Source: Bacilli bacterium (GTDB lineage Bacteria > Bacillota_I > Bacilli_A > RF39 > UBA660). Taken from it: DNA of 44,574 bases. Location of the stretch: the NCBI GenBank assembly GCA_017459965.1, contig JAFUBW010000003.1, positions 1 to 44,574 of the forward strand, given 5' to 3'. Below are positions 1,041-36,545 of this stretch, piece after piece. Position numbers and translations under genes: made by a program. Below the pieces are notes generated by a model. The model did not search any database. It had not been told where the DNA came from and was given only the letters and a program-made list of their open reading frames with translations. The stretch's first letter is position 1. Every line of letters begins with the position of its first letter.

Positions 1041-2672
1041 ATGGAAAATAAAAAGAAAACTTCATTTGCTAGCAATGTATTTATGTTGATGGCTTCGAAT
1101 ATATTAATTAAAGTATTAGGTCTTGTATATAGACTTGCTATTACAAATGTAAAAGGATTTGGGGATCTTGGGAATGGTTATTATTCAGCGGGATATCAAG
1201 TATATGCTGTACTTTTAATAATATCATCTCAAGGTATACCAGGTGCAGTATCTAAACTTGTATCTGCTAAAGTAGCTAAAGGAGAATATAATAAGGCACA
1301 TAGAATATTTAAAATATCTATGTATGTATTTGGTCTTATTGGATTAATATGTTCATTGCTATTATTATTTGGAGGTAAATTTGTAGCAACTAATATACTA
1401 AATGTTCCAGATGTAAAATATGTATTATGGGTTCTTTCTCCAGCTATTTTCTTTGTATGTGTATCTGCTGTTATAAGAGGATATTTTGCTGGACTTGGTA
1501 CAATGAAAGCATCTTCAACATCACAATCTTTAGAACAATTATTTAACTGTATACTTACAATAACATTTGTATATTCCTTGGTAGGTAAAGATGCATATAT
1601 AATGGCTGCAGGAGGTAATGTATCTACAACTCTTGCTGTATTAATATCATTTTCTTATCTATTATTATTTTATAAAAAGAATATTAAAAAGTATAAAGAA
1701 AAATCAAATGATGAAGTTATCATAAATAAAGAAGAAAATAAAAAAATTGCAAAACTAATTATAATGACTGCAATACCACTTACTATAGGATCAGTTATTA
1801 GTGTTGTTACATCCTTTATAGATACAGTGACAGTTAGTAATTGTATTCAAATTGCATATAGTAATATACTTCCAACTAAAACATTACTTGAAAAAGAAGC
1901 AATGAAAGCAGCTGGTATTTTATCTAAAGTAGATACACTTGTTAATTTACCACTTGCTGTTAATTTATCATTCTATTTTGCACTTATTCCAGAGATAACA
2001 TCATTAATTTCTAAAAAGAATTTTAAAGAAGCAGCAAGAAAAATATCATCATCAATTGCGACATCATTATTTATAATAATTCCTTGTGCAGTAGGATTTA
2101 TTACACTTTCTGATTCAATACTTAAAATGCTTTATCCAAATGCATCAGATGGTGCACTTGTACTTCAAATTGCATCTGTAACAATGATAATAGTAGCAAT
2201 TAATCATACACTTCAAGGTTCATTATTTGGACTTGGTAAAATGTATACACCTGCAATTGCATTATTATGTGGAAGTGCAGTAAAAATAGTATTAAATATG
2301 ATATTAATAAGTAATCCAAATATAGGAATGTATGGAGCACCAATTAGTTCATTTATTTGTCAGTTAATAACATTCTTAATAATATATATTACATTAAAGA
2401 AATCTATTGATTTTAAAGTAGATATAAATAAATCAATAATAAAACCAGTTATATCTGCAATTATTATGGCAACAGTTATATTAATCATGCAATATACACT
2501 TGGTAATGTAATAGGAAATACTATTCTTACATTAACATGTATATTAGTAGGTGCTTTTATATACCTTATGTTCATTGTTATATTAAAAGTATTTACTAAA
2601 GAAGAGATATTAAACTTTCCATTTGGAAGTAAAATATATAAAGTCTTAAATAAATTAAGATTATATAATTAA
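1041..2672 (+). CDS. murJ: Lipid II flippase, MurJ/YtgP-type (MOP superfamily)
   Basis: This is a polytopic membrane protein of 543 residues, the usual size for Bacillus YtgP/SpoVB-type transporters (about 14 helices). The N-terminus (FASNVFMLMASNILIKVLG...YRLAITN) and the SQGIPGAVSKLVSAKVAKGEY stretch are typical of the SpoVB/YtgP branch of the MOP superfamily. YtgP moves undecaprenyl-linked peptidoglycan precursor across the membrane. Start: the ATG follows an AGAAAGAGTG ribosome-binding site. It is followed after 11 nt by alr, then murT and gatD, so a peptidoglycan role is more likely than export of another polysaccharide. A Wzx-type exporter of the rhamnan made from genes further right cannot be excluded from sequence alone. 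Confidence 0.85.
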   Translation: MENKKKTSFASNVFMLMASNILIKVLGLVYRLAITNVKGFGDLGNGYYSAGYQVYAVLLIISSQGIPGAVSKLVSAKVAKGEYNKAHRIFKISMYVFGLIGLICSLLLLFGGKFVATNILNVPDVKYVLWVLSPAIFFVCVSAVIRGYFAGLGTMKASSTSQSLEQLFNCILTITFVYSLVGKDAYIMAAGGNVSTTLAVLISFSYLLLFYKKNIKKYKEKSNDEVIINKEENKKIAKLIIMTAIPLTIGSVISVVTSFIDTVTVSNCIQIAYSNILPTKTLLEKEAMKAAGILSKVDTLVNLPLAVNLSFYFALIPEITSLISKKNFKEAARKISSSIATSLFIIIPCAVGFITLSDSILKMLYPNASDGALVLQIASVTMIIVAINHTLQGSLFGLGKMYTPAIALLCGSAVKIVLNMILISNPNIGMYGAPISSFICQLITFLIIYITLKKSIDFKVDINKSIIKPVISAIIMATVILIMQYTLGNVIGNTILTLTCILVGAFIYLMFIVILKVFTKEEILNFPFGSKIYKVLNKLRLYN

Positions 2673-2683: not shown

Positions 2684-3787
2684 ATGAACGAATTAATAAT
2701 TAATATTGAAGATTTAGTACATAATATAAATGTAATTAAATCAAAAGAAGAAGAAAATTATACAATAATAGCGGTAGTTAAAGGAAATGCTTATGGCTGT
2801 GATTTAAAACAGTATGTAGAAATATTAAAAGATATGGATATTGAATATTTTGCTGTGGCATCATATGCTGAAGTTATTGAATTTAGAAAATACTTTACTG
2901 ATAAGTTACTTTTATTAACACCTTATTCTGATGAAAAAATAGTTAATGATTTAATTGATAAAGATATAATATTTACAATAGATTCAATTAGACAAGCTAA
3001 AATAATAGATAAAATTGCTAAAGAGAAAGACAAAAAAATTTATGCACATATTAAAATAGATACTGGATTAAATAGATATGGATATAAATTTAATGATATA
3101 GAATCAATTATTAATACTATTAATAATACTGAAAAAATTAAATATTATGGAATATATTCACATTTATCAAATTCACTTGCTAAAAACAGTAAATTTAGTG
3201 AACTTCAATATAAAAGATTTATAAATGTTATTGACAAATTAAGTGAAAACAATATTGATTTTAAATTAAAACATATATGCAATTCATCCGGTTATTTTAA
3301 ATATCCTAATATGCATCTAAATGCTGCAAGAATAGGTTCTGCTTTTATAGGACAAGCAACAGGTATTAAAACAGATTTAAAGAAAATAGGTACATTTCAT
3401 ACTCATATAACTAAAATAATAGATGTAAAAAAAGGTGATTATATAGGATATGCTAAAAGTTATAAAGTTAAACGAAATATGACACTTGCAGTTCTTCCAA
3501 CAGGATACTTTGATGGTATAGGTAAAACATTAATAGAACAGAGATTTATGTTTAAAAGCAAGGTTAAAAGATTATTAATAGATACAAAAAAATTATTTAA
3601 AAAAGATTATTATACTATTAATAATATGAATGTAATTGGTCAAATAGGAATGCATGATGTAATGCTTGATATAACAGGCAAGGAATATAATGTAAATGAT
3701 GACTTATATTTTTATATAAAACCAACTTTAATAGATTCTAGTATAAAAAGGGTGTATAAAGAAAATAATAAAAAGATAGTAGAATAA
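2684..3787 (+). CDS. alr: Alanine racemase
   Basis: This PLP enzyme interconverts L- and D-alanine and supplies D-Ala for the peptidoglycan stem peptide. The PLP-binding lysine is K33 in VVKGNAYG (family VVKxNAYGHG). The C-terminal beta-domain carries the IGYAKSY segment whose Y256 corresponds to the second catalytic base, followed by AVLPTGYFDGI, matching the family 'AVlPiGYaDG'. At 367 residues it has normal length. The C-terminus is divergent (IGMHDVMLDIT replaces the usual CMDQ.MVD.T), but key residues are present. Start: ATG preceded by AAAGGAG. It lies 11 nt after murJ and 11 nt before murT in one operon. A serine-racemase activity, as in VanT, cannot be excluded, but the membrane domain of VanT is missing. 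Confidence 0.93.
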   Translation: MNELIINIEDLVHNINVIKSKEEENYTIIAVVKGNAYGCDLKQYVEILKDMDIEYFAVASYAEVIEFRKYFTDKLLLLTPYSDEKIVNDLIDKDIIFTIDSIRQAKIIDKIAKEKDKKIYAHIKIDTGLNRYGYKFNDIESIINTINNTEKIKYYGIYSHLSNSLAKNSKFSELQYKRFINVIDKLSENNIDFKLKHICNSSGYFKYPNMHLNAARIGSAFIGQATGIKTDLKKIGTFHTHITKIIDVKKGDYIGYAKSYKVKRNMTLAVLPTGYFDGIGKTLIEQRFMFKSKVKRLLIDTKKLFKKDYYTINNMNVIGQIGMHDVMLDITGKEYNVNDDLYFYIKPTLIDSSIKRVYKENNKKIVE

Positions 3788-3798: not shown

Positions 3799-5169
3799 AT
3801 GAGAAAAATATGGTTTTTTATAGTTCTTTTAGGAACAAAATTTGGTTTATTATTATGTAAGTTATTTCATAAGCAAGGATCAATGATTGCAGGTAAAACA
3901 GCAATTTTCTTTCAAAAAGATTTTGTAAAATATTTTACTAATATAGATTATAATAAAGTTTTTTTTGTAACAGGTACAAATGGTAAAAGTACAACTACTA
4001 ATTTACTTTATCATACATTAAAAACATCAGGAAAAAATATTGCTTCTAATGTGGAAGGCGCTAATATGATGAGTGGAGTTGCTACTACACTTATTAAAAA
4101 TTCCAATATATTTGGTAAATTTAATAAAGAATTTTTAGTGCTTGAAATAGATGAAAGAAGTCTAAGAAATATATTTAAAGTATTACCAGCGAAAAACTTA
4201 TGTATATCTAATCTTCAAAAAGATCAAGTACAAAGAAATGGTGACCCAGATTTTATTTATCAAATGTTTAAAAATTCATTAAATAAAGATGTAACTTTAT
4301 ATGTAAATAATGAAGAAGTTAGAAGTAGAAGTTTAGAAGATTATGTAAATAAAAGTATTTATTTTTCTTTAGAAAGAAACTCAAAAACATTTGAAAAACA
4401 TGATTTCTATGATGTTACTTGTCCATGTCCTAAATGTTCTCATAAAATAGAATATGAATATTATAATATAGAAAATATTGGTAAATTTAAATGCAGTCAT
4501 TGTGGTTATAAATCAAATACAAAAGTAGATACTTTAATTACTGATGTTGACTTTGATAACAAATCGTTTAAAGAAGGAAAAGATACATATAAAGTAAAAT
4601 ATGCAAATCCATTTATGATGTATAATTATGCACTTGTAATATCAGTGTGTAAAAGATTTAATATAGATGCTAATACTATAGAAGAAGGATTTTTATCATT
4701 TATAAATCCAGCCGATAGAAGAGAAACTTATTTTTATCATGGTAAGACTATTAGATATTTAAGAATGAAACAAGAAAATCCAGAAACACTTCAAAATGCA
4801 CTTGATACAATCGCAAGAGATAAAAATAAAAAAGCCGTTTATATGGGACTTTATGAAATAAAAGACTTTAAACCAGCATATAATAATACATTTTATTTCT
4901 TTGATTGTGACTTTAAGAAAATTGTAGAAACAGATGTAGAACAATATGTATGTTTTTCAAAAACTGCATCATATGAAACTGCTAATAGAATGTTATACGC
5001 AGGAGTTGATAACAAAAAATTGAAAGTATATGATGTAGAAGATGATTTTGATCTTATTTTTGAAGATATAGATAAATTAAAATCAGAAACAATATATATT
5101 ATTACTGGTATGAAACCATATCATAAAATAAAAGCATTCTTTAATAAAGAAGGTGAAAACAATGATTAA
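3799..5169 (+). CDS. murT: MurT-type Mur ligase (lipid II isoglutaminyl synthase subunit), divergent C-terminal domain
   Basis: Known MurT proteins bind ATP and lipid II and, with GatD, amidate the alpha-carboxylate of D-Glu in the stem peptide. Seen here: a P-loop GTNGKST at residues 59-65; the Cys ribbon typical of MurT, with C208/C210/C213 and C232/C235; and a DUF1727 C-terminal domain from about residue 300. That last domain is unusual. The family KNPaG motif reads K324-QENPET, and the family segment with conserved Asn-Asp and Ala-Asp-Gly-x-Asp, which I believe supplies the third member of the glutaminase triad, reads YEIKDFKP at 352-359. These changes parallel the loss of catalytic residues in GatD. 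Start: ATG after AAGGAG. The length of 456 is normal. Ligase activity is likely; the source of ammonia is unclear. Confidence 0.85.
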   Translation: MRKIWFFIVLLGTKFGLLLCKLFHKQGSMIAGKTAIFFQKDFVKYFTNIDYNKVFFVTGTNGKSTTTNLLYHTLKTSGKNIASNVEGANMMSGVATTLIKNSNIFGKFNKEFLVLEIDERSLRNIFKVLPAKNLCISNLQKDQVQRNGDPDFIYQMFKNSLNKDVTLYVNNEEVRSRSLEDYVNKSIYFSLERNSKTFEKHDFYDVTCPCPKCSHKIEYEYYNIENIGKFKCSHCGYKSNTKVDTLITDVDFDNKSFKEGKDTYKVKYANPFMMYNYALVISVCKRFNIDANTIEEGFLSFINPADRRETYFYHGKTIRYLRMKQENPETLQNALDTIARDKNKKAVYMGLYEIKDFKPAYNNTFYFFDCDFKKIVETDVEQYVCFSKTASYETANRMLYAGVDNKKLKVYDVEDDFDLIFEDIDKLKSETIYIITGMKPYHKIKAFFNKEGENND

Positions 5170-5887
5170 TGTACTATGGATGTATCCTGATATACTTAAT
5201 CTTCATGGTGAAAGAGCTAATGCTAAGGCTTTTGAAGTAATAGGTAAAAAATTAGGTTTAAAAGTAAAAATAGATAGACTTGATGATTTAGATGAAAAAG
5301 TAGAATTTGATAAATATGATATACTTTTATTTAACGCTGGACAATTAAAGGAAATTGAAGTACTTTCAAATGTATTAAAAAATCAAATAAATGATTTAAA
5401 AAAATATATAAAAGATAAAAAAATAATATTTGTAACAGGTACAACAGGGGCATTATTCTCAAATAATATACAAAGACTTGATGGTACATCTTTTAAAGGA
5501 TTAAATATATTTGATGCAGATATTAAAGAAAGAGAATATGTACTAGGTGATGATTTATATTTTGGATTTAAAAAAATGAAAATAGTAGGTCCGCAAATAC
5601 AAATGATAGATATAGATATAAAAGATGAAAAACCATTTGGTAAAGTTATTTATGGTTATGGAAATAATGGTAAAGGCGATGAAGGTATTATTAAAAATAA
5701 TGTGATATTTACAAACACACTAGGACCTGTACTTGTTAAAAATCCATGGTTATTAGAATATTTATTTGACTTAGTAATTAAAAATAAAAAATTAAAAGTC
5801 AAAAAGAAAAAAATTAAATATGATTTAGAAAAAAAATCACTTGAATCATGTGAAGCGTTTATTAATAAAAAATTAGAAAATAAATAG
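5162..5887 (+). CDS. gatD: GatD-like class I amidotransferase lacking the catalytic Cys and His
   Basis: This 241-residue protein has the length and order of GatD: MYPDILNLHGERAN at the N-terminus (family YPdlLNlYGDrGN), YGYGNN near 164-169 and LGPVLVKNP at 187-195 (family HGPlLpKNP). The nucleophile motif ICGGYQ reads VTGTTG (91-96), so Thr92 replaces the catalytic Cys, and TYLHGP reads TNTLGP, so Leu187 replaces the catalytic His. GGGQD near residue 60 is also lost. It should therefore not hydrolyse glutamine by the known mechanism. I chose the ATG eight bases inside the murT stop because AAGGTG sits just upstream; a GTG three codons earlier is the alternative. The overlap implies coupled translation with murT. 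A scaffold role, or an ammonia-dependent complex, is inference. Confidence 0.82.
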   Translation: MINVLWMYPDILNLHGERANAKAFEVIGKKLGLKVKIDRLDDLDEKVEFDKYDILLFNAGQLKEIEVLSNVLKNQINDLKKYIKDKKIIFVTGTTGALFSNNIQRLDGTSFKGLNIFDADIKEREYVLGDDLYFGFKKMKIVGPQIQMIDIDIKDEKPFGKVIYGYGNNGKGDEGIIKNNVIFTNTLGPVLVKNPWLLEYLFDLVIKNKKLKVKKKKIKYDLEKKSLESCEAFINKKLENK

Positions 5888-5942: not shown

Positions 5943-6662
5943 ATGGGAAGAGCATATGAAGTAAGAAAAGCATCTATTCAAAAAAATGGTGCCATAAAAG
6001 CAAAATTATATTCTAATTTTGCTAAAGAAATATATTTGGCTGCTAAAAATGGTGGTACTGATCCAGATTCTAATGCAAATTTAAAAAGACTAATGGATCA
6101 AGCTAAAAAAAGCCAAGTGCCATCAGATATAATTAAAAGAGCAATTGATAAAGTAAATTCAGGTGTAGATGAAAATTATACATCTTGTAGATATGAAGGT
6201 TTCGGACCAGGGAGTAGTACATTAATTGTAGATTGTCTTACTGATAATGTTAATAGAACAGTTGGTTTTGTAAGAGCAGCTTTTACAAAATGTAAAGGTA
6301 AATTAGGTGTAGAAAACTCAGTATCACATTTTTATGAAAACTTAGCAATATTCGCAGTTAAAGGATACACTGAAGAAGAACTATTTGAAAGTTTAATGAT
6401 GAATGATGTTAATGTTAAAGATATAGAAACAGATGATGATGTAGTAATTATTACAGGTGAAGCTAAAGAATATAATAATATTAGAAAAGCATTAATTAGT
6501 ATTAATTCAGAAATTGATTTAGAAGTTGATGAAATAGCTATGGTACCACTTGATAAAGTTACATTAGAAAATGATGAAGATAAAGAAATGTTTGATAAAT
6601 TACTTAATATGCTTGATGATATAGAAGATGTACAAAATGTATATCATAATGTAGAACTATAA
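5943..6662 (+). CDS. yebC: YebC/TACO1 family protein
   Basis: This is a cytoplasmic protein of 239 residues, full length for the family. The N-terminus has the conserved block GRAYEVRKASIQKNGAIKAK (family GRs.kw..ik..Kg..DakR.k.f.k), followed by a helical domain containing NLKRLMDQAKKSQVPSDIIKRAI. The second domain has YEGFGPGSSTLIVDCLTDNVNRT, characteristic of YebC. Members have been described as transcription factors (PmpR) and as factors acting on the ribosome; which applies here cannot be read from sequence. Start: ATG after AAAGGAGTG. It has its own promoter and terminator, so it is monocistronic. Confidence 0.93.
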   Translation: MGRAYEVRKASIQKNGAIKAKLYSNFAKEIYLAAKNGGTDPDSNANLKRLMDQAKKSQVPSDIIKRAIDKVNSGVDENYTSCRYEGFGPGSSTLIVDCLTDNVNRTVGFVRAAFTKCKGKLGVENSVSHFYENLAIFAVKGYTEEELFESLMMNDVNVKDIETDDDVVIITGEAKEYNNIRKALISINSEIDLEVDEIAMVPLDKVTLENDEDKEMFDKLLNMLDDIEDVQNVYHNVEL

Positions 6663-6730: not shown

Positions 6731-8083
6731 ATGGGTAGAAGAAGGCGAAAAGGAAGAATAAGATGGAATAGAGTCTTTATAGTATTATTTATTATATTGT
6801 TTATTGTATTTGTTATAAAATTAACAAATTATATTTTATATAATAATAAAGTTTATAATACTGTTGTAGAATCATCCGCAAAAGATGCGTTAATAAATAA
6901 AAAATATAAAAAACTTAGAATTTATAATAAAACAATTGATTTAATAAAATCAGACAATGTTTCTATTGTAATAAAAAATAAAAACACTAAAGTATATCTA
7001 GAATCCAAAAATGTAGAAAAAAATATGGATATTACAGTTAAAACTTATAACAAAAGATTACATTTTGATAACTTTCCTAAAGTAAAATCTTTATTTATTG
7101 AAAATAAAGGTATAGTTAAAAAATCTTCTAAAGTAGAAATAACACTTCCAAAATATTTAACTAAAAATCATATTGTAGATGTATATGGTGTTAGAAATGA
7201 TAATAGAGTTAATCAAATAGATTTAGCAGAAAAAGTAGAAAATACAATTACTATAAAACCACAAAAACAATATGAAAGATATTTTATAACATATATAAAA
7301 TTAGATGATATAAAAATAAAAAATTCAACAGTTAATTCTGGTTCTATAGTTAATTTAAATATAAAATATGTTCCAGAAGTTGCTACTATAAAAGATTATG
7401 AATATACTGATATAGGTGATATATTTATGATAAATAAAGATAAAAAAATAGTTGCAAAAAAAGCAGGTAAAAGTACAATAACAATAAAACATACTTATCA
7501 AAATATAACAAAAACTGCAACTATAACTGTTAAAGAAGAAAAAAATAATATAGAAGTTAAAAATGGTATTACATATGTGAATGGTATATTAATTGCAAAT
7601 AAAACATATTCACTTCCAAAAGATTATGATCCAGGTAAAATAAACGACGATGCTTTAAAAGCTTTTGAAGAAATGAGACAAGCAGCTTCAAAAGATAAAA
7701 TTACATTATGGATACAATCTGGATATAGATCATATAAAACTCAAGAAGAACTATATAATAATTATGTAAAACAAAATGGTAAAGAAAAGGCTGATACTTT
7801 TTCAGCAAGACCAGGTCATTCTGAACATCAATCAGGATATGCAATGGACTTAAATATAATAGATTCATCTTTTGAAGGTACAAAAGAAGCAATATGGATA
7901 GAAAAGAATTGTTATAAATATGGTTTTATATTAAGATATCCAAAAGGTAAAGAAAAGATAACAGGTTATAAATATGAACCTTGGCATTTAAGATATTTAG
8001 GAAAAGATCTAGCTAAAAAAGTTTTTTCTAGTGGATTAACACTTGAAGAATATCTAGGAATAGATTCGAAATATAAAGACTAA
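6731..8083 (+). CDS. Membrane-anchored D-Ala-D-Ala carboxypeptidase (VanY/M15B) with Ig-like domain
   Basis: Layout: a very basic N-terminus (MGRRRRKGR) and one transmembrane helix at about 14-36; an uncharacterised extracellular region; a bacterial Ig-like (BIG2) domain at roughly 195-275; and a VanY domain from about 290. The zinc-peptidase signature SEHQSGYAMD (364-373, family SxHxxGxAxD) gives H366 and D373, and EPWHLRYLG gives H419. SGYRS is also present. Such enzymes remove the terminal D-Ala from peptidoglycan stem peptides and so limit cross-linking. The start ATG is preceded by AGGGAAG. The gene has its own extended -10 promoter. Nothing suggests vancomycin resistance, since no vanHAX-type genes are near; this is a housekeeping trimming enzyme by inference. 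Confidence 0.9.
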   Translation: MGRRRRKGRIRWNRVFIVLFIILFIVFVIKLTNYILYNNKVYNTVVESSAKDALINKKYKKLRIYNKTIDLIKSDNVSIVIKNKNTKVYLESKNVEKNMDITVKTYNKRLHFDNFPKVKSLFIENKGIVKKSSKVEITLPKYLTKNHIVDVYGVRNDNRVNQIDLAEKVENTITIKPQKQYERYFITYIKLDDIKIKNSTVNSGSIVNLNIKYVPEVATIKDYEYTDIGDIFMINKDKKIVAKKAGKSTITIKHTYQNITKTATITVKEEKNNIEVKNGITYVNGILIANKTYSLPKDYDPGKINDDALKAFEEMRQAASKDKITLWIQSGYRSYKTQEELYNNYVKQNGKEKADTFSARPGHSEHQSGYAMDLNIIDSSFEGTKEAIWIEKNCYKYGFILRYPKGKEKITGYKYEPWHLRYLGKDLAKKVFSSGLTLEEYLGIDSKYKD

Positions 8084-8095: not shown

Positions 8096-8127
8096 TGTTA
8101 TAATAACCCTCATAAAGGAGGGTTTTT
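8096..8127 (+). promoter_or_regulatory. Overlapping promoter, hairpin and Shine-Dalgarno element
   Basis: An extended -10 TGTTATAAT (8096-8104) predicts initiation near 8111. That start lies at the end of the 5' arm of the hairpin AACCCTC / GAGGGTT (8105-8111 and 8118-8124, loop ATAAAG, followed by five T). The 3' arm contains the AAGGAGGG Shine-Dalgarno of the next gene. Transcripts reading through from the upstream gene would form the hairpin (termination and/or a masked ribosome site). Transcripts from the local promoter lack the 5' arm and leave it free. Confidence 0.6.
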
Positions 8128-17439: not shown

Positions 17440-19506
17440 ATGAAAAAGAAAAGAAAGAAAACTAGATTAAAGAAATTATTATTTATATTAATACCAATCG
17501 TTGTAATTATAGCTATAATTTTTATTGGTGTATATACAAAAAATGAAAATGATAAAAAAGGTGTCTTTTCAATATTAGAAAAAAGATGGATAGAAAAAAA
17601 TAAATCTACAGTTGTAGATGTATCTGTTATTAATGATTTACCTTTATTTGGAGATGAAGGAGATGGAGTATTTTTTGATTTCTTAAATGACTTCGAAAAA
17701 GAAACTAATTTAAAATTTAATATGATTCCATATTCTATGAGTAAATCTTCTTCAGATAGTGGTTATTCATTTCAGATTAATAATAAAACTAAATTAAGTG
17801 ACAATGAATTATTATTATATAAAGACAATTATGTAATGATTAGTAAAGAAAGTGAAAAAATAAAAGATCTTTCTTCTTTGAAAAATTCAGTTATTGGGGT
17901 ATTAGATACAGATTTAAGTACAATTAAAGAATTTTTGAGTACAAATGATAGCATAGTTTTTAATACATATAATGATATAGATTCGATAGTTTCAGCACTT
18001 AATTCAAATGATGTTAAATATGCTATTATACCTAATAATATATATATAGATAAAACACTTAAAAATAACTATTATATAGTATATAATGCATCAGATATTT
18101 ATACTAATTATGTTTTAAGTGTAAATGGTAATGAAAAAGTATTAAATAGTATTATTAAAAAATATTATATAAGATGGATGAATGAAAAGTTTGATTCTTC
18201 ATATAATTCTAGATTGTTTGAACTTTATATAGAACAAAAAGGTTTAGATGAAGTTGCAAAAGCAGATTTTTCGTCAAAGGATTATGTTTATGGTTATATA
18301 AAGAATATTCCATATGAAACTGAAATAAATAATGATTTTATAGGATTTAACAGTGAAATATTAGATGAATTTGCTAAAGCAATGGGAGTTACTTTTAAAG
18401 TTAAAGAATTTAATTCATTAGATGATTTAACAAGTGCATTAAATGATGGAAAAGTTGATGTTGCATTTAATTATTATAAATACAATAATTTAACTAATAA
18501 ATTTGATTATACTTTTTCACCATATAATGAAAAATTAGCAGTATTAACAAGTATTAATAATACTACAACTACAATGAATTCCCTTGTTTCATTAAAAGGT
18601 CAAAAAGTATATATGCTTGATAATAAATTAGCAAATTATATTGAAGATAATACTGATATAGATGTAAAATTGTTTAAAAAGTCATCTACATTATTTAATT
18701 CACTAAATGATGAAAGTATTGTTATAATTGATTATAATACATACAATTATTATAAAAATAATGAGTTGAGTAGTTTTAAAGTTATATATGAAGATACAAT
18801 AGATACAGATTTTAATTTTATATTAGTTAATTCTAATAAAAATAAAACATTTATAAGTTTATTTAAATATTATATATCTACAATAGATACAAATTTATAC
18901 AAATCTCGTGCTTTATTAAAATTTAGTAATGATAGTAAAAAAATTGATTTAACTTATATATATTTCATAATTGGTATTGTTGTATTAACTGTATTTAGTA
19001 TTGTATATTTTAAAAATAGAACAATATCAAGTAAGATAAGAAAAGAAGATAAAATGAAATTTGTTGACCATTTAACATCTTTAAAAAATCGTCATTATTT
19101 AAATCAAAATTATTTAAAATGGCAAGCAAACAAAATTTATCCACAAGCAATAATAGTTGTTAATGTAAATAAAATTGGACATATAAATGATGTATATGGT
19201 CATGAAGAAGGGGATATGGTATTAAAACAAGCAGCAAATATATTAATTAATAATCAATTAGAACAAAGTGATATAGTAAGAACAAATGGGGATGAATTCT
19301 TAATATATTTAGTTGGTTATGAAGAATCAAAGGTTATAACATATATGAGAAGATTATATAAAGAATTTAAAAATTTACCATATAAATTTGGTGCATCTTT
19401 AGGTTATAGTATGATTCTTGATGATGTAAAAACAATTGATGATGCAATTAATGAAGCTGTACTTGAAATAAAGACTAATAAGGAGTCTACAGACGAAAAT
19501 AAATAA
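17440..19506 (+). CDS. Membrane receptor with two SBP-like sensor domains and a degenerate GGDEF domain
   Basis: The 688 residues run as follows: a basic N-terminus and helix at about 11-30; two tandem substrate-binding-protein-like (family 3) extracytoplasmic domains at roughly 55-270 and 280-500; a second transmembrane helix near 508-528; and a cytoplasmic GGDEF domain. Active GGDEF domains make cyclic di-GMP and need an Asp in a DxD-like motif and the Glu of GGDEF for metal. Here the first motif reads N575-V-N577 (VVNVNKIGHIND), so the metal-binding Asp is Asn. The signature is NGDEF (616-620), with the first Gly replaced. The guanine-contact Asn in IND and the YGHEEGD segment are kept. 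It is probably not a cyclase; binding of a nucleotide is possible. It lies in an envelope cluster just before the YihY and LtaS genes. Confidence 0.85.
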   Translation: MKKKRKKTRLKKLLFILIPIVVIIAIIFIGVYTKNENDKKGVFSILEKRWIEKNKSTVVDVSVINDLPLFGDEGDGVFFDFLNDFEKETNLKFNMIPYSMSKSSSDSGYSFQINNKTKLSDNELLLYKDNYVMISKESEKIKDLSSLKNSVIGVLDTDLSTIKEFLSTNDSIVFNTYNDIDSIVSALNSNDVKYAIIPNNIYIDKTLKNNYYIVYNASDIYTNYVLSVNGNEKVLNSIIKKYYIRWMNEKFDSSYNSRLFELYIEQKGLDEVAKADFSSKDYVYGYIKNIPYETEINNDFIGFNSEILDEFAKAMGVTFKVKEFNSLDDLTSALNDGKVDVAFNYYKYNNLTNKFDYTFSPYNEKLAVLTSINNTTTTMNSLVSLKGQKVYMLDNKLANYIEDNTDIDVKLFKKSSTLFNSLNDESIVIIDYNTYNYYKNNELSSFKVIYEDTIDTDFNFILVNSNKNKTFISLFKYYISTIDTNLYKSRALLKFSNDSKKIDLTYIYFIIGIVVLTVFSIVYFKNRTISSKIRKEDKMKFVDHLTSLKNRHYLNQNYLKWQANKIYPQAIIVVNVNKIGHINDVYGHEEGDMVLKQAANILINNQLEQSDIVRTNGDEFLIYLVGYEESKVITYMRRLYKEFKNLPYKFGASLGYSMILDDVKTIDDAINEAVLEIKTNKESTDENK

Positions 19507-27030: not shown

Positions 27031-28998
27031 ATGAAAAAAGTATTATTTGTTATATTATCTTTTTGCATTATTTTTCTTCCGATGAATTCTGTAAAAGCTG
27101 ATAATAATACTTTTATAAAAGGTGTTGTTACAGGTAGTGGGGTATCTGTTAGAACAGGACCTTCTAAAAATTATTCTTTAGTAAAAAATGATATAAATGA
27201 ATCAATTTATTTATCAAAACCAGAATCTGTAGAAGTATTAGGTTCTACAAATGGCTGGTATCAAATAAAGTTTTTATATAGTGGTTTTATATATACTGGT
27301 TATATTAGTGCAGATTATTTAAGAGTTACCACAGTAACTATAGATAATAGTTATAAAAATAGTCTTATGGCAAAAGGTTTTCCAGAAAGTTATGCAGAGA
27401 AATTAACTAAATTACATGCACTGCATCCAAATTGGAATTTTATAGTATCTAATACAAATTTAAATTGGAATGATGCAGTTAATGGAGAAGCAACACCAGT
27501 TAGTAAAAATCAAATTCAATCAACAAATGCAACTCTTAGATCTACCGAAGATGGAGCATATTCAAATGGAACATATACACAATACGGTACAGGGTGGTAT
27601 GCTGCTAGTAAGCAAACAATAGGTTATTTTATGGATCCAAGAAACTTCTTAGATGAAGGACATATATTCATGTTTGAAGCATTAGATTATTCATCAAGTA
27701 ATCAAGATGTATCTACAATTCAAAATATGTTAAATGGAAGTTTTATGAGTGGATCATTTAATTATAATAATCAATCTTGGACATATGCCAATACATTCTT
27801 AACAGCAGGTAGTCAAAATAATATTAATCCAATTCATTTAGTAAGTAGAATATTACTTGAACAAGGTTCAACTTGTACAGCTCTTACTTGTGGAACTGGT
27901 TATAATGGGAATTATGTAGGTTACTATAATTTCTTTAATGTAGGTGCAAGTGGGAATTCTGATTATGATATTATCATAAGTGGTTTAAGACATGCATATA
28001 ATAAAGGATGGAATAATCAATATTTATCGATTGTAAATGGATCTGCAACAATAAGTAATGATTATATAGCAAGAGGACAATCAACTCTTTATTATCAAAA
28101 ATTTAATACAATTACACCATCTTATTATATAAATCAATATATGCAAAATGTAAAAGCACCTTATACAGAAGCTTATTCAACATATACTAGTTATTATAAT
28201 TCTAATTTACTTGATAGCGCATTTACTTTTAAAATACCTGTTTATAATAATATGCCAGATGCAACTACATTATCAACTAGTGAAAATGCCACAAATACAT
28301 TAAGTAGTTTAAGTATATCTAATTGTGAACTTAGTCCTTCATTTACATCTTCAGCTACTAGTTATACATGTAATGTGGATGAAAGTATTAATTTTGTAGA
28401 GGTTAAAGCAACTAAAACTAGTGCTTACTCAACAGTAAAAGGAACTGGAAATATTAGCTTAACTTCAGATAATAATAGAGTGGTTGTATCAGTAACAGCT
28501 GCTAATGGAAATGTACGAGATTATGTAGTTACAATAAAAAAAATACAAAAAGATATTAGTAAAGTAACACCAGCTGATATAATAAGTTATATAGGTTATA
28601 ATAATAATAGTAATGTATTAAGTAAAATAACTGAAGGAACTGATATATCTAATATAATTAGTAATATTAAAGATAAATATTCACAAGCAAACGTAATAAT
28701 TAAAGATAAAAATAATAATCAAAAAACAAAAGGAAAAATTTCTACTAATGATAAAATTATTATAACAATTAATAATCAAACTATAGAGTATTCCACAGTA
28801 ATATATGGTGATGTATCAGGAGATGGAATTATAGATATAACTGATTTACTAAAAGTACAAAAACATATTAAAAATGTAAGTGTTTTATCGGGAAATTATT
28901 TAACAGGTGCTGATACAGATAAAAATGGAAATGTTGATATAATAGATTTACTAAAGGTACAAAAACATATTAAAGGAATAGCTACTATATCTCAATAG
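27031..28998 (+). CDS. Secreted glucosaminidase (autolysin) with SH3b, cadherin-like and dockerin domains
   Basis: The 655 residues comprise a signal peptide (about 1-24, ending SVKA); an SH3b domain (VSVRTGPSKNYSLV, about 35-105); and an endo-beta-N-acetylglucosaminidase domain of the LytG/GH73 type (about 108-400) with probable catalytic E277 in SRILLEQG, plus NPIHL and NFFNVGASGN. A cadherin-like beta-sandwich follows (about 428-508), then a linker and a type I dockerin at about 592-655. The dockerin has two calcium-binding loops, GDVSGDGIIDITDLLKVQKH and DTDKNGNVDIIDLLKVQKH. Dockerins bind cohesins and are best known from cellulosomes. Here the next gene encodes a membrane-anchored cohesin-like protein, so the enzyme is probably held at the cell surface by that partner. 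It cuts peptidoglycan glycan strands. Start: ATG after AAGGAGG. Confidence 0.92.
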   Translation: MKKVLFVILSFCIIFLPMNSVKADNNTFIKGVVTGSGVSVRTGPSKNYSLVKNDINESIYLSKPESVEVLGSTNGWYQIKFLYSGFIYTGYISADYLRVTTVTIDNSYKNSLMAKGFPESYAEKLTKLHALHPNWNFIVSNTNLNWNDAVNGEATPVSKNQIQSTNATLRSTEDGAYSNGTYTQYGTGWYAASKQTIGYFMDPRNFLDEGHIFMFEALDYSSSNQDVSTIQNMLNGSFMSGSFNYNNQSWTYANTFLTAGSQNNINPIHLVSRILLEQGSTCTALTCGTGYNGNYVGYYNFFNVGASGNSDYDIIISGLRHAYNKGWNNQYLSIVNGSATISNDYIARGQSTLYYQKFNTITPSYYINQYMQNVKAPYTEAYSTYTSYYNSNLLDSAFTFKIPVYNNMPDATTLSTSENATNTLSSLSISNCELSPSFTSSATSYTCNVDESINFVEVKATKTSAYSTVKGTGNISLTSDNNRVVVSVTAANGNVRDYVVTIKKIQKDISKVTPADIISYIGYNNNSNVLSKITEGTDISNIISNIKDKYSQANVIIKDKNNNQKTKGKISTNDKIIITINNQTIEYSTVIYGDVSGDGIIDITDLLKVQKHIKNVSVLSGNYLTGADTDKNGNVDIIDLLKVQKHIKGIATISQ

Positions 28999-30615: not shown

Positions 30616-32913
30616 ATGAATAAATATGATAAATTTTTAAATAAATTAATGCCAATAATACTGATATTATTTCCATTTATAGATGTATTAACATCACTTC
30701 AAATAAGAAATAATATTGGTTTTATTTCTGTAGGGACATTAATTAGAGGTATATTTTTAATATTAATAATTATTTATTTAAAAAAGAAAAATGTTAATAA
30801 TAAAATATTATTTGTATTTGGTCTATATTTTATTTTAGAATTAGGATATATTTTCTTATTTACTAAAAGTAATATATATTCAGAAATATCAAATATATTT
30901 GAAATATTTTATTTACCATTTTTAATATATTTCTTTAAAAAATATGATAATAAAAAAATAGATGATAAATATATATTTATAATATATTTAATATATTTAA
31001 ATTTAATATTAATACCAAGATTATTTGGTATAGGTTTTAATATAAGTGAAATATATAAAAATAAACATGGGTATTGTGGTTTATTTTATTCTGGTAATGA
31101 AATAAGTGCTATATTACTTGGACTTTTACCAATAGTATTAAACTATGTCTTTAAATTAAAAAATTATATTATTAAAATATTCTTTTATATAGAATTACTT
31201 GCAGTAATTATTTTACTTGGAACTAAAACATTATTCTTTGGAAGTATAATTGTTGTAGGTTATTATTTTATAAAATATTTAAAAAATAATTTTAAAAAAA
31301 TGAAAAAAATATACAAATTATTATGGATATTTATACCAATTTTATTTATAACTAGTATAATTATATATCTTCCAAAAACATCAGTATATAAAAATATAAA
31401 AGAACAATTAAAATATTACGAAATAGATGAAATGGATGAATATATTAGTGAAAATATGCTAGATAGAGTAGTATTTTCATCAAGACTATCGTTCTTAAAA
31501 AAAGTTAATAATGAATATATAAATAAAAATAATAAATATGGATTTATATATGGTTTATCTAGAGAAAGAATACTTCAAATTAAAGATATAGAAATAGATA
31601 TATTTGATATATTTTATTCAGTAGGTATATTTGGAAGTTTTATATATATATTAATGATGATTTATGCATTAAAAGGTGTTCATTTAAGAAAATATTATAA
31701 ATTTAGTTTTATATTGTTTATATTAATGAGTTTATTTTCAGGACATATATTAATTAAACCAATGGTCTCAATTTATATTGCTATTTTATTTATATTAAAT
31801 AAAAATGATGTAAAGATAGAAAAGAAAAAAATATTATTAGTATCTAATATGTATCCATCAAAAAAATATAAACATTATGGCTCATTTGTAAAAAATGTAA
31901 AATGTGTTTTAGAAGATAATGGTTATATAGTAGATAAATCTGTAATGTATAAAAAGGATAATATAATAGGTAAAATTATTTCTTACTTATCACTTTATTT
32001 TGGAACAATACTTAAAGGAATGTTTAACAATTATGATTATATATATGTACATTTTATATCACATTCTGCTTGGCCAGCAGTTTTCTTAAAGAAAACAAGT
32101 AAGAATATTTGTTTAGTATTTAATGCACATGGTAATGATGTTGTAATGGATTTACCAAGTGAAGAAAAGAATATTAAAAGAAGTAAAAAATATATACCAT
32201 ATGCTGATAAGGTAGTTGTACCTTCTAATTACTATAAAAATGTTATGATAAAAAAATATAATGTAGATGAAAATAAAATATTTGTATATCCATCAGGTGG
32301 AGTTAATACAGATATGTTTGTTAATATTGATATGTCTATATCTAAAAAAGAATGTAATCTAAAAGAAGAATATAATTACATTGGATATGCTTCTAGAATA
32401 GAAAAAAATAAAGGATGGGATACATTCCTAAAAGCTATTAAATTATTAAAAGATGAAAATAAAATTGGTAATAAAAGATTCTTAATTGTAGGTTCTGGTT
32501 CTGAAGAAAAAGATATGAATAAAATGATGAAAGAACTAGATATTGTTGATTATATAGAAACAAGAAGTTTAGTTTCACCTGAAGAATTAGTTAATATATA
32601 TAATAGTCTTCAAATATTTGTATTTCCTACATATAGAGAAAGTGAAAGTTTAGGACTTGTAGGTTTAGAAGCAATGTCTTGTGAAACATTTGTAATCGCA
32701 TCTGAAAACTTTGGACCAACTGATTATGTAAGAAATATGAAAAATGGTCTGTTCTTTAAAGGACAAGATTTTGTAGATTTAAAAAATAAAATATTAGAAT
32801 ATGATAAATTAAATAATGAACAAAGAAAGAAAATACTTAAAAAAGCAAGAGAAACTGCGTTAAAATATGATGTTAGAAATACAAAAGATGAAATATTAAA
32901 AGTTTTTAAATAA
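30616..32913 (+). CDS. Fusion of O-antigen polymerase/ligase-like membrane protein and family 4 glycosyltransferase
   Basis: Residues 1 to about 395 form a polytopic domain of about ten helices, with a long extracytoplasmic loop near 255-330 (YLPKTSVYKNIKEQLKYYEI onward). This is typical of Wzy polymerases or WaaL-type ligases. From about 406 (KKILLVSNMYPSKKYKHYGS) follows a GT-B glycosyltransferase of the GT4 type, with FNAHGNDVV, YIGYASRIEKNKGWDTFLKA, FLIVGSGSEE and the donor-binding TYRESESLGLVGLEAMSCE. The reading frame is continuous with no internal Shine-Dalgarno at the junction. The two activities are normally separate proteins. It probably adds a sugar to the lipid-linked repeat unit and polymerises or transfers it; that is inference. 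Start: ATG after ATAGGTG. Confidence 0.85.
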   Translation: MNKYDKFLNKLMPIILILFPFIDVLTSLQIRNNIGFISVGTLIRGIFLILIIIYLKKKNVNNKILFVFGLYFILELGYIFLFTKSNIYSEISNIFEIFYLPFLIYFFKKYDNKKIDDKYIFIIYLIYLNLILIPRLFGIGFNISEIYKNKHGYCGLFYSGNEISAILLGLLPIVLNYVFKLKNYIIKIFFYIELLAVIILLGTKTLFFGSIIVVGYYFIKYLKNNFKKMKKIYKLLWIFIPILFITSIIIYLPKTSVYKNIKEQLKYYEIDEMDEYISENMLDRVVFSSRLSFLKKVNNEYINKNNKYGFIYGLSRERILQIKDIEIDIFDIFYSVGIFGSFIYILMMIYALKGVHLRKYYKFSFILFILMSLFSGHILIKPMVSIYIAILFILNKNDVKIEKKKILLVSNMYPSKKYKHYGSFVKNVKCVLEDNGYIVDKSVMYKKDNIIGKIISYLSLYFGTILKGMFNNYDYIYVHFISHSAWPAVFLKKTSKNICLVFNAHGNDVVMDLPSEEKNIKRSKKYIPYADKVVVPSNYYKNVMIKKYNVDENKIFVYPSGGVNTDMFVNIDMSISKKECNLKEEYNYIGYASRIEKNKGWDTFLKAIKLLKDENKIGNKRFLIVGSGSEEKDMNKMMKELDIVDYIETRSLVSPEELVNIYNSLQIFVFPTYRESESLGLVGLEAMSCETFVIASENFGPTDYVRNMKNGLFFKGQDFVDLKNKILEYDKLNNEQRKKILKKARETALKYDVRNTKDEILKVFK

Positions 32914-32922
32914 GGAGTATTT

Positions 32923-33786
32923 ATGAAAACAGGAATAGTTATTTTAAACTATAATGATTATGATACTACTAAAGATATGATTGAAAGAATTAAGAGTTAT
33001 AAATGTTTAAATCACATATTAATTGTGGATAATAAAAGTACTGACAGATCTTATAGTAAACTAAAAAAATTAGAAAATAAAAATATTGAAGTTATTAAAA
33101 CAGATGATAATAAAGGATATGCATATGGAAATAACTTTGGTGTAAGATATTTAGATAGTAAATATAAAATAGATAATATTATAATATCTAATCCAGATGT
33201 TATAGTATCTGAAGATGTTATAGATACTTTAATAAATGATTTAAAAAATAAAGAAGATATATCAATAATCGCACCAATAGTTGAAGAAAAAGGAATAATC
33301 TCTAGAGGATGGAAGTTACCAGGTTTTAAAGAAGATTTATTATCAAATATAAATTATTTTCATAAATATTCAAAGAAATTAATGAGTTATGATGAAGAAT
33401 ATTATAATAATAAATTATCTAGAGTAGAGGCAGTTCATGGATGTTTCTTTATGATAAGATTAAAAGATTTTAAAGAAGTAGGTTTGTTTGATGAAAATAC
33501 ATTCTTATATTATGAAGAAAATATATTAGGTAGAAAATTAAAAGAAAAAGGAATGTTTGTTTACATAGATAATACAGTAAAAGTAATTCATGATCTATCA
33601 GTAAGTGTTGATAAAACATATAATTCTATAAAGAAATATAAAATACTTAAAAATAGTCAAAAATATTATGAAAAGAACTACAATAATCTTAATATTTTTG
33701 GTATTATATTATTAAGAATATTTTACTACATAAGTTTAATAATATCTTATATAGTAATATTTATTACAAACATAAAAAGGAAGTAA
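32923..33786 (+). CDS. Family 2 glycosyltransferase, rhamnosyltransferase-like
   Basis: This is a 287-residue GT-A enzyme: ILNYNDYDTTKDMIERI at the N-terminus, HILIVDNKSTDRSY, then KGYAYGNNFGVRY and NPDVIV as the metal/nucleotide-sugar motif. VEAVHGCFFMIRLKDFKEVG and FLYYEENILGRKLKEKG form the acceptor side. The pattern is that of WbbL/RgpB-like rhamnosyltransferases, which suits the dTDP-rhamnose genes downstream. A C-terminal hydrophobic helix (about 258-283) would attach it to the membrane. Start: ATG after TAAGGAG. It lies 9 nt behind the fusion gene and 3 nt before the next glycosyltransferase, so all three are one operon. Confidence 0.85.
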   Translation: MKTGIVILNYNDYDTTKDMIERIKSYKCLNHILIVDNKSTDRSYSKLKKLENKNIEVIKTDDNKGYAYGNNFGVRYLDSKYKIDNIIISNPDVIVSEDVIDTLINDLKNKEDISIIAPIVEEKGIISRGWKLPGFKEDLLSNINYFHKYSKKLMSYDEEYYNNKLSRVEAVHGCFFMIRLKDFKEVGLFDENTFLYYEENILGRKLKEKGMFVYIDNTVKVIHDLSVSVDKTYNSIKKYKILKNSQKYYEKNYNNLNIFGIILLRIFYYISLIISYIVIFITNIKRK

Positions 33787-33789
33787 AAC

Positions 33790-34956
33790 ATGAAGAATAT
33801 AATAATAATTGGATCAAGAGGTTATGAAAGTGAATATGGCGGATGGGAGACTTTTGTAACTAATTTAATTAATAATTATAATGATAAGGATACTAGATTC
33901 TATGTACCAGAGCTTACTCATAAGAGAGAAAGTCAAATAGAAATAAGAAATGGTGTCATATGTAAAAAAATATATGTTCCAAAACAAGGCTTTGTAACTA
34001 TGTTTACATTTGTTATAAAAGCAGTTCTTTATTATAAAAGATATATTAAAAAGGAAAAATTAGATAATGTAATTATGTATATTTTAGGTTGTAGAGTAGG
34101 CCCTTTATTTTCTTTAATACATAAAAAATTAAATAAAATGGGAGTAAAAATAATAATTAATCCAGACGGACTTGAATGGACTAGAGAAAAATGGTCTTGG
34201 TGGATAAAGAAATGCTTTAAAATATCTGAAAAAACAATGATTAAATCATCAAACTATGTAGTTTGTGATTCAAAAGCAATTGAAAATTATGTAAAAGAAA
34301 AATATAAAAAATATGATAAAGATACTACTTTTATTGCTTATGGGGCATATCTAAATGACATAAAAGATATTGATAAAAAAACAAAAGAATTTATGGATAA
34401 AAATGATATTAAACCAAGAGATTATTATTTAATAGTAGGAAGATTTGTACCTGAAAATAACTATGAACTTATAATAAATGAATTTATGAAAGCAAACACA
34501 TCAAGAGATTTAGTAATAATATCTAATGTAGAAAAAAATAAATTTTATAAAAAATTAAAAGAAAAAACAAATTTTGATAAAGATAAAAGAATTAAATTTG
34601 TTGGACCAGTTTATGATGATGAAATACTTAGAAGACTTAGAAAAAATGCTAAAGGATATATACATGGTCATTCTGCAGGTGGAACAAATCCATCACTTCT
34701 TGAGGCACTTAGTATAACAGATGTTAATATATTATATGATGCTATATATAATGTAGAAGTAGGTGGAGAAGGTGCATTATATTTCTCAAATGAAGAAGAT
34801 TCATTAAAAAAAGTTATTGAGAAAGTAGAAAAGTTTAAATCAAAAGAAAACAATATGTATAGTGAACTTGCTAAAAAAAGAATTACTGATGAATATACAT
34901 GGGAAATAGTAGTCAAAAAATATAAAAAATTATTTAGTAAATTATTAGAAAAATAA
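33790..34956 (+). CDS. DUF1972 family rhamnosyltransferase (WchF/RgpA-like)
   Basis: This is a 388-residue GT-B enzyme, the size of streptococcal WchF (Cps2T) and RgpA. The family-specific start IIIIGSRGYESEYGGWETFV (usual form 'GsrGiPA.YGGFETfv') marks DUF1972. NPDGLEWTREKWSWWIKKC and VVCDSKAIENYV follow, then GHSAGGTNPSLLEAL as the donor-binding loop. Characterised relatives add the first rhamnose, from dTDP-L-rhamnose, to the lipid-linked primer sugar of capsule or rhamnan. The dTDP-rhamnose operon starts directly after it, which supports this reading. Start: ATG after AGGAAG. It is closed by a terminator. Confidence 0.87.
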   Translation: MKNIIIIGSRGYESEYGGWETFVTNLINNYNDKDTRFYVPELTHKRESQIEIRNGVICKKIYVPKQGFVTMFTFVIKAVLYYKRYIKKEKLDNVIMYILGCRVGPLFSLIHKKLNKMGVKIIINPDGLEWTREKWSWWIKKCFKISEKTMIKSSNYVVCDSKAIENYVKEKYKKYDKDTTFIAYGAYLNDIKDIDKKTKEFMDKNDIKPRDYYLIVGRFVPENNYELIINEFMKANTSRDLVIISNVEKNKFYKKLKEKTNFDKDKRIKFVGPVYDDEILRRLRKNAKGYIHGHSAGGTNPSLLEALSITDVNILYDAIYNVEVGGEGALYFSNEEDSLKKVIEKVEKFKSKENNMYSELAKKRITDEYTWEIVVKKYKKLFSKLLEK

Positions 34957-34986
34957 ATAAAGGCTTTACCTACCTTTATTTTTTTT
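34955..34986 (+). terminator. Intrinsic terminator of the glycosyltransferase operon
   Basis: The stem AAATAAAGG / CCTTTATTT (34955-34963 and 34973-34981) is followed by a T tract that runs into the next promoter. Confidence 0.8.
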
Positions 34987-34994
34987 GTTATAAT
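34986..34994 (+). promoter_or_regulatory. Extended -10 promoter of rmlACDB
   Basis: TGTTATAAT (-10 at 34989-34994) lies 22 bp before the rmlA start. There is no clear -35 box; the T tract of the terminator occupies that position. Confidence 0.65.
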
Positions 34995-35016
34995 ACAAAT
35001 AGGGAGGTTTTTTATT

Positions 35017-35913
35017 ATGAAAGGAATTATACTTGCAGGAGGGTCTGGAACAAGACTTTATCCTATCACACAGGCAATTAGTAAACAAGTAATGCCTATA
35101 TATGATAAACCAATGATTTATTATCCACTTTCAGTACTTATGATGGCAGGAATAAAAGATATAATGGTTATAACAACTAAAGAAGATCAACCAAATTTTA
35201 TTAAATTATTAAAAGATGGTTCACAATTTGGGATTAATATTGAATATAAAATTCAACCATCACCAGATGGACTTGCTCAAGCATTTATTTTAGGAGAAGA
35301 ATTTATTGGTAATGATCCATGTGCAATGGTGCTAGGAGATAATATTTATTTTGGTAATAATTTTAAAAATATGCTTGTTAATGCAAAAGAATATGCAGAA
35401 AACGGGAAAGCATCTATATTTGGATATCAAGTAAGAGATCCACAAAGGTTTGGAATAATGGAAATAGATGAAAATCAAAATGTATTAAGTGTTGAAGAAA
35501 AACCACAAAATCCAAAATCTGATTATGCAATCACAGGTTTATATTTTTATCCTAAAGGTGTTTCAGAAATGGCAAAACAGGTTAAACCTTCAAAAAGAGG
35601 TGAACTTGAAATAACAACTCTTAATGATATGTATTTGAAAAATGGTAACTTAAGAGCAGAACTTCTAGGTGGAGGTTTTACATGGTTTGATACAGGTACA
35701 ATTGATAGTATGATGGAAGCAAATAGTATGATAAGACTTGTTCAAACAAATAATGGTAAAATAATATCATGTCCAGAAGCAATTGCTTATAATCAAGGAT
35801 GGATCGATAAAGATACATTGCTTGAAGCAGCTACTTTAATGCAAAAAAATGATTATGGTAAATATTTATTTAAAGTAGCAGAAAAAAACAAATCATTGAA
35901 ATTGGAGAAGTAA
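35017..35913 (+). CDS. rmlA: Glucose-1-phosphate thymidylyltransferase
   Basis: This enzyme catalyses the first step of dTDP-L-rhamnose synthesis: Glc-1-P plus dTTP gives dTDP-glucose. The nucleotide-binding signature GGSGTRLYPITQAISKQVMP is followed by YDKPMIYYPLS, then QPSPDGLAQAFILGE, the metal-site VLGDNIYFG, and GGGFTWFDTGT near the C-terminus. The length of 298 is normal. Start: ATG after AGGGAGG. It is the first of four contiguous genes in the order A-C-D-B, each within 10 nt of the next. The codon use is slightly less extreme than in the glycosyltransferases before it, as often seen for these well-expressed and conserved genes. Confidence 0.97.
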   Translation: MKGIILAGGSGTRLYPITQAISKQVMPIYDKPMIYYPLSVLMMAGIKDIMVITTKEDQPNFIKLLKDGSQFGINIEYKIQPSPDGLAQAFILGEEFIGNDPCAMVLGDNIYFGNNFKNMLVNAKEYAENGKASIFGYQVRDPQRFGIMEIDENQNVLSVEEKPQNPKSDYAITGLYFYPKGVSEMAKQVKPSKRGELEITTLNDMYLKNGNLRAELLGGGFTWFDTGTIDSMMEANSMIRLVQTNNGKIISCPEAIAYNQGWIDKDTLLEAATLMQKNDYGKYLFKVAEKNKSLKLEK

Positions 35914-35915
35914 TT

Positions 35916-36545
35916 ATGGAAATTAAAGAGGAATATATTAAAAGAGCAGAAGAAATTCAAAAATTAGATAGTTTTAAAACAATCAAAATAGAAGCAACAA
36001 ATTTAAAAGATTGTTATATTCTAACACCTATAAGATTTGGTGATGAAAGAGGCTTTTTTGAACAAACTGATATGTCAGCACTCAAAGATTTAGGTTTTAA
36101 AAATTTTGAAAAGTTAAATGAGTCAATGAGTTGTAAAGGTACAATTAGAGGAATGCATTTTCAAAAAAATCCTTATGCACAAACAAAAGTAGTAAGTTGT
36201 AAAATAGGGTCAGTACTTGATGTGGTTGTTGATATGAGAAAAGATTCTGAAACTTATGGAATGTGGACAAGTGTAGAATTAAATTTAGAAAATGGTAGAA
36301 TGCTATATGTACCAAGAGGATTTGCTCATGGTTTTGTAGCACTTAAGGATAATACTTTTTTTCAGTATTTAGTTGATAATGTATATAATAAAGAATCAGA
36401 AGCAGGTATTATTTGGAATGATCCTGATATAAATATAGATTGGCAATTTGATAAATATGGTATAGATAAACCAGTATTTTCTGAAAAAGATCAAAAGCAT
36501 TTAACATTAAAAGAATCACCAGATTATTTTAAGGAGGTATTATAA
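35916..36545 (+). CDS. rmlC: dTDP-4-dehydrorhamnose 3,5-epimerase with short N-terminal extension
   Basis: This is a cupin-fold epimerase, the third step of dTDP-L-rhamnose synthesis. Seen: FGDERGFFEQTD (usual FGDeRGfF.E), KGTIRGMHFQKNPYAQTKVV containing the catalytic His, SVLDVVVDMRKDSETYG and the YVPRGFAHGF motif. The protein has 209 residues against about 185 for most relatives. The first ~22 residues (MEIKEEYIKRAEEIQKLDSF) form a charged helix before the normal start of the fold. GGAGAAG in front of the ATG supports this longer start. It follows rmlA after 2 nt and its stop overlaps the rmlD start by one base. Confidence 0.95.
   Translation: MEIKEEYIKRAEEIQKLDSFKTIKIEATNLKDCYILTPIRFGDERGFFEQTDMSALKDLGFKNFEKLNESMSCKGTIRGMHFQKNPYAQTKVVSCKIGSVLDVVVDMRKDSETYGMWTSVELNLENGRMLYVPRGFAHGFVALKDNTFFQYLVDNVYNKESEAGIIWNDPDINIDWQFDKYGIDKPVFSEKDQKHLTLKESPDYFKEVL

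Follow-up and report, generated by a model that had tools for sequence, protein, structure and literature searches.

MurT and GatD are usually regarded as a single enzyme that makes a single product, D-isoglutamine. What does such a pair do when its GatD has lost the glutaminase site? The question is raised by a locus on a 44,574-nt contig of a Bacilli bacterium (JAFUBW010000003.1), the whole of which we refer to as the window, and which belongs to a genome of 1.06 Mb. The locus has the order flippase, alanine racemase (Alr), murT, gatD, yebC and VanY-type peptidase, followed by a hairpin (Table 1), and can be regarded as a putative operon. The start of gatD lies 8 nt before the murT stop, an overlap of 8 nt; the overlap of a gene start with the preceding stop is a usual sign of coupling. 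The Alr encoded directly upstream is the sole Ala_racemase_N protein found in this genome, and it may simply serve D-Ala.

Table 1. Features of the murT-gatD locus, in window coordinates.
Feature	Position	Strand	Basis
SpoVB/MurJ-type flippase, start of putative operon	1041..2672	+	profile matches
Alanine racemase (Alr), directly upstream of murT	2684..3787	+	profile matches
murT, MurT-type Mur ligase, 456 aa	3799..5169	+	P-loop, Mg/acid residues, Cys4 zinc ribbon intact
MurT Asn363 codon (S. aureus MurT Asp349, third split-triad residue)	4885..4887	+	alignment
MurT Phe367 codon, donor-side position	4897..4899	+	alignment
gatD, pseudo-glutaminase GatD (type A), 241 aa	5162..5887	+	open frame, profile matches, AF2 model
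Thr92 codon	5435-5437	+	
ggt codon, Gly93, nucleophile position (S. aureus C94)	5438..5440	+	alignment, model
cta codon, Leu187, catalytic His position (S. aureus H189)	5720..5722	+	alignment
YebC-family protein, downstream neighbour of gatD	5943..6662	+	profile matches
VanY/LdcB-type peptidase, last gene of putative operon	6731..8083	+	profile matches
Terminator-like hairpin after putative operon	8105..8124	+	consensus match only

Farther along the window, we observed a single protein that combines a solute-binding SBP_bac_3 domain with a GGDEF domain (17440-19506), in a genome of only 1.06 Mb, and a protein of 655 aa with an SH3_3 and a dockerin type I domain (27031-28998). A cell-surface polysaccharide cluster occupies 30616-42702, with an O-antigen-ligase-like protein and glycosyltransferases, and also a nucleotidyltransferase, a dTDP-sugar epimerase, RmlD, a dehydratase and an acyltransferase.

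The first step is to establish whether the gene downstream of murT encodes a GatD and whether its catalytic site is gone. Its product scores 75 bits against NF045636 (E 4.5e-21; curated cut-off 400) and also matches the GatD model NF052463; its top PDB matches are the GatDs of S. pyogenes and S. aureus, and Pfam GATase_3 gives no match. The original prediction, made from the letters of the DNA, held that this is a GatD relative with an open frame and without the catalytic Cys and His, and our analysis confirms it, with a correction to one of the residues named. Leu187 does occupy the position of S. aureus His189, an unambiguous assignment anchored by the adjoining GP (LGP in place of HGP). Thr92 had been placed at the nucleophile, and this part did not stand: gap-free pairing with S. 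pyogenes GatD sets Gly93 against the nucleophile and Thr92 against the preceding Ile, an alignment with 64 active GatDs gives the same register, and the structural model agrees. We rejected the pairing of Thr92 with C94 obtained by phmmer against S. aureus alone, which requires two gaps where the gap-free alignments give Gly93. We also rejected Thr92 as a stand-in nucleophile: many proteins of the clade that includes the window (type A, described below) carry Ile or Val there, and it is Gly93 that sits at the elbow. The protein contains one Cys, C230 in its C-terminal tail, leaving the GATase domain without any, and one His, H15; a catalytic Cys or His displaced within the site, for which the alignment was to be checked, is thus excluded.

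The AF2 model of the window GatD (pLDDT 95, pTM 0.92) superimposes on 6h5e_A with Z 30.6 and rmsd 1.8 over 239 residues. It places Gly93 in the elbow between strand 88-92 and helix 93-99, the place of the nucleophile elbow in this fold. As modelled, the GatD fold is retained despite the lost catalytic site. The protein is altered at 38 of the 51 positions conserved among active GatDs, including the Cys, the His, the Gly and Gln that follow, and the Gly-rich loop, and most residues of its glutamine site differ from those of active GatDs.

The loss extends to the partner protein. The catalytic triad is split between the two subunits, and its third residue in S. aureus is MurT Asp349, whose replacement in D349N severely reduces activity (PMC6113224). 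At this position the window MurT has Asn363, a further triad loss absent from the original prediction, and its DNAAD...GRD region carries the motif KDFKPAYNNTFYFFD. With Cys94 changed to Gly93, His189 to Leu187 and MurT Asp349 to Asn363, the split triad is wholly gone in the window pair. The window MurT exceeds the cut-off of PF08353 and scores 150 bits against NF045635, whose cut-off is 800; its model (pLDDT 84.7, pTM 0.79) matches 9sqj with Z 32.0 and rmsd 4.1 over 385 residues.

How far does the pair still resemble the MurT/GatD synthases of S. aureus, S. pneumoniae and S. pyogenes (PDB 6gs2/6h5e, 6fqb, 9sq9)? It shares with them the murT-gatD order, both folds (Z 32.0 and 30.6), the P-loop, the acid residues, the GAN loop and the Cys4 zinc ribbon. 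Unlike them, it is without Cys94, His189, MurT Asp349 and the DNAAD motif, its donor side is rewritten, and its scores fall far below the curated cut-offs. Because the three defining residues are replaced, the window pair, judged by its sequence, does not belong to the isoglutaminyl synthases that hydrolyse glutamine; its mode of action is probably that of a Mur-type ligase whose GatD is structural. Mur-type ligases mostly add amino acids. The earlier description of this GatD as a structural pseudo-glutaminase is supported by the threefold loss in the split triad, the mostly changed glutamine site, the kept fold and the low dN/dS reported below. No second GatD was found in the assembly (~90% complete), although an active one had been suggested as something to look for elsewhere in the genome. 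The sole PF00117 protein found there (L229; G000:C15:6479-6940, minus strand) is Peptidase_C26-like, and is itself apparently without the catalytic Cys (AIGLGMQE) and His (VQWNPE).

We then placed the window pair among its relatives. Whole-genome and GTDB contig searches yielded 233 pairs in which the two proteins were both of sufficient length; thinning at 72% identity left 118, from which an unrooted tree was built. Pairs with Cys, His and Asp form an active clade of 32 rows (SH-aLRT 99). Type A, the clade that includes the window, comprises 41 rows (SH-aLRT 100), with mostly Leu at the His position and mostly Asn at the Asp position; the nucleophile position holds Gly in all 41 tree rows, and this Gly is therefore not a matter of chance. 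Type B is a second deep clade without Cys and His (39 rows, support 99; most of L010-L036 and L044-L068, plus L107, L114, L124, L125 and L142), with Gly and then Ile, Leu, Thr or Val at the His position and the GatD signature TGN...GTYLIGP; its MurT keeps the Asp in nearly all members and has an SRRY/SRKY motif in place of DNAAD. A type C/D clade, likewise without Cys and His, has six rows (support 99), and type D was seen at seven loci (L200-L203, L206, L207, L209) in Actinobacteria genomes of 1.6-2.6 Mb, with a locus GC of 53-66%. Pairs without Cys and His outnumber active ones in this sampled set, the sampling of which is biased.

The members of type A include Anaerofustis stercorihominis DSM 28733 (L077), many uncultured Clostridia, and one Actinobacteria bin named Propionibacteriaceae (L087). 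Type A MurT (E below 1e-120) is present in 44 of 67 genomes in the Anaerofustis order, some of them 4.0-4.4 Mb in size, and the type A GatDs read in this order are all without Cys and His. Three particular cases were observed in the same survey. Genome G453 has the single active-clade GatD with Gly at the nucleophile position and with the His and the MurT Asp kept (L149 / L260), and also carries a type A pair. Genome G002, of the window's genus, has three pairs (L006, L007 and L008, of types A, B and C), all without catalytic Cys and His. Finally, the P-loop of one type B MurT (L057, genome G093), whose neighbour is an open GatD frame, is degenerate and reads GTSNKNEI.

A comparison of type A MurTs indicates conservation on the activating and acceptor side, whereas the nitrogen-donor side carries a different conserved set of residues. 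Invariant or nearly so are the P-loop GTNGK, the Mg/acid residues, and N84, G87 and N89 of the GAN acceptor loop; E116, D118 and E119 are kept, as are the catalytic-loop residues N138, D142 and R146, and K324, and the zinc ribbon (C210, C213, C232, C235) is invariant. By alignment in the present analysis, the kept residues were paired with those of S. pneumoniae, where Asn85, Glu110, the acid pair 112/113, Asp136 and Arg140 are given roles in acceptor or ATP binding or in activity (PMC6085368). The donor and GatD side shows the changes R141K, D145Q, L322R, G330T and the ND of DNAAD, and further G361Y, D363N, S365F, W366Y and R390V. Loss of the glutaminase does not by itself call for such changes on the MurT donor side and in DNAAD.

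Gene neighbourhoods connect type A with an amino acid racemase. A racemase gene lies directly downstream of gatD at L009, L072, L075, L076, L087, L088, L090, L093, L099 and L102, all type A, and is present in convergent orientation at L100. Against NF040742, the model of ornithine racemase Orr, with a curated cut-off of 480 bits, six of these racemases reach 308-458 bits, and the majority of Orr matches likewise score below that value. L101-L148 include 43 active-type loci, and an Orr-type racemase is absent from all of them within the stretches examined. In the Anaerofustis order, 41 genomes have both type A MurT and Orr, three have type A only, four Orr only and 19 neither (Fisher p 4e-10, uncorrected for relatedness). 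Outside it, Orr occurs in half of the type A genomes (11 of 22) and is absent from the 24 that have another type (21 active-type and three type B), a count likewise uncorrected for relatedness. At the eight Orr loci read in the Anaerofustis order, Orr stands apart from murT, and Orr-type racemases can also serve ornithine fermentation. A residue on the donor side of MurT follows the same division: position 367, after NTFY, is Ala, Ser, Gly or Thr in 50 of 51 Orr-bearing rows and Phe, Leu or Met in 18 of 19 Orr-less rows, Phe367 of the window among the latter. This correlation holds in 68 of 70 rows; since it comes down to four changes across the tree (p 0.25 by a sign test), it is suggestive only. 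No Orr was found in the genomes scanned from the window's genus, so that the donor in the window has no backing from a dedicated racemase.

What might these pairs make? Residue conservation and gene context make it, by our estimate, just about probable that they form a glutaminase-free branch of the family, which attaches an amino acid at the D-Glu2 alpha-carboxyl with GatD as a structural component and, where Orr is linked, with D-Orn or D-Lys as the donor. MurT would phosphorylate the alpha-carboxyl of D-Glu2 on the lipid-linked precursor; an amino acid, replacing ammonia, would be the nucleophile that attacks the activated D-Glu2; and GatD would be the obligatory structural partner of MurT. 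In the Orr-bearing relatives the donor would probably be D-Orn or D-Lys, and the product would be the branch D-Glu(alpha)-D-diamino acid, as it occurs in group B2 peptidoglycan. In the subclade of the window, with Phe367, no Orr and Alr beside murT, a smaller amino acid would be the probable donor. A more specific proposal, which we put forward tentatively and hold to be somewhat short of probable, is that type A is the group B ligase that adds a D-diamino acid or other amino acid to D-Glu2, again with a structural GatD, and that the other clades without Cys and His would represent further donor specificities.

The chemistry known for group B peptidoglycan fits such a role. Microbacteriaceae are the other large group B family. 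In group B, the cross-bridge begins at stem position 2 via a diamino acid, in a 2-4 linkage (PMC11382707, PMC6085368). For Eubacterium, B2-alpha peptidoglycan is listed among other types (PMC11382707); the wall of E. limosum contains Ala, Glu, Lys, Orn and Ser (PMC4791908), and the B2 walls of Paramicrobacterium contain D-Orn (PMC10757982). The Orr of NF040742 has its counterpart downstream of type A gatD, and D-Orn is a group B2 bridge residue; the comparison differs for the window, whose genus is without Orr, and most of the matches stay below 480 bits. Among the papers searched, none names a ligase for the alpha-carboxyl in group B or a GatD without its Cys, and the distribution section of PMC6085368 does not mention Cys-less GatD. 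The original prediction had offered either free ammonia or a different ligation. The new evidence leans to the latter because the MurT donor side is rewritten, because of the Orr-type linkage, and because type A occurs in a family for which group B and ornithine-containing peptidoglycan have been reported.

The main rival to an amino acid donor is that MurT still makes D-isoglutamine, fed by free ammonia, and that GatD only holds it in an active shape; we consider this unlikely. The gut and the rumen, environments rich in ammonia, are the source of many type A records, and Phe367 of the window is bulky, as are the Ile and Leu of active MurT. In S. aureus, MurT alone is inactive and requires GatD (Munch et al. 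2012, PMC3266927), and the GatD C94G mutant loses the glutamine-dependent activity and keeps the NH3-dependent activity at pH 8.5 (PMC3266927). An ammonia-fed MurT is thus possible, above all in the Orr-less subclade of the window. However, the S. aureus pair used no ammonia at pH 7.5 (PMC3266927), and free ammonia would account neither for the rewriting of the MurT donor side and DNAAD alongside fixed acceptor residues nor for the linkage to an Orr-type racemase. The C94G mutant of S. aureus (PMC3266927) also offers a direct comparison with the window GatD: both have Gly at the nucleophile and act, or would act, as a structural partner without glutaminase, but the Gly of the window is natural and clade-wide, accompanied by loss of the His and of MurT Asp349 and by new conserved residues.

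That the pair acts away from D-Glu2, for example on another lipid-linked or a recycled peptide, or serves as a non-catalytic regulator, appears quite improbable. Its strong divergence (150 of 800 bits for MurT, 75 of 400 for GatD) and the replacement of DNAAD, a motif implicated in stem-peptide contact (PMC6113224), would fit such a role. Nevertheless, the P-loop, the acid residues, the GAN loop and D142/R146 of the catalytic loop are conserved, so that MurT most likely catalyses ligation to a similar acceptor, and the surroundings in the window, from the SpoVB/MurJ-type flippase and Alr to the VanY-type peptidase, are those of the cell wall.

Type A genes are under purifying selection. Close type A pairs have dN/dS of 0.04-0.12 for gatD and 0.02-0.07 for murT, apart from one near-identical gatD pair with an uninformative value of 0.54; comparisons inside the window's genus give 0.23-0.32 for gatD and 0.14-0.27 for murT. 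Five other genomes of this genus each have an open frame as their best GatD match, with lengths of 249-257 aa, although in L003 a single TAA lies within the matched stretch, near its end. Given the gatD values in close pairs of relatives, the window GatD is not a decaying pseudogene. Decay in a reduced genome, which the size of 1.06 Mb and the loss of Cys and His from its only PF00117 protein might suggest, is hardly credible and is refuted at the level of the clade by the open frames and purifying selection of relatives, 4 Mb genomes included, the Gly in 41 of 41 type A rows and the confident fold of the GatD model.

The amino acid ligase that we favour has parallels on both of its sides. Mammalian carbamoyl phosphate synthetase I has a glutaminase domain without the catalytic Cys, and its donor is ammonia. 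It resembles the window GatD in keeping a Cys-less glutaminase domain within an enzyme that does not use glutamine, and differs in that its ligase is unrelated. On the ligase side, the closest fold to the window MurT after MurT itself is that of pMurC, a Mur-type pseudomurein peptide ligase (PDB 6vr7; Z 24.2), which differs in being archaeal, in its longer chain of 485 residues and in a structure without a GatD chain.

The GatD family thus holds three or more clades, supported in the tree, in which the glutaminase site is missing, and calling their Cys/His-less pairs isoglutaminyl synthases in annotation would be wrong. The chemistry of group B 2-4 cross-linking has been known for decades. If type A does put an amino acid on D-Glu2, the gene would become a candidate for the step that initiates this cross-linking, and that step would become testable in cultured Eubacterium. 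The family would then also offer a clear example of an amidotransferase that became an amino acid ligase.
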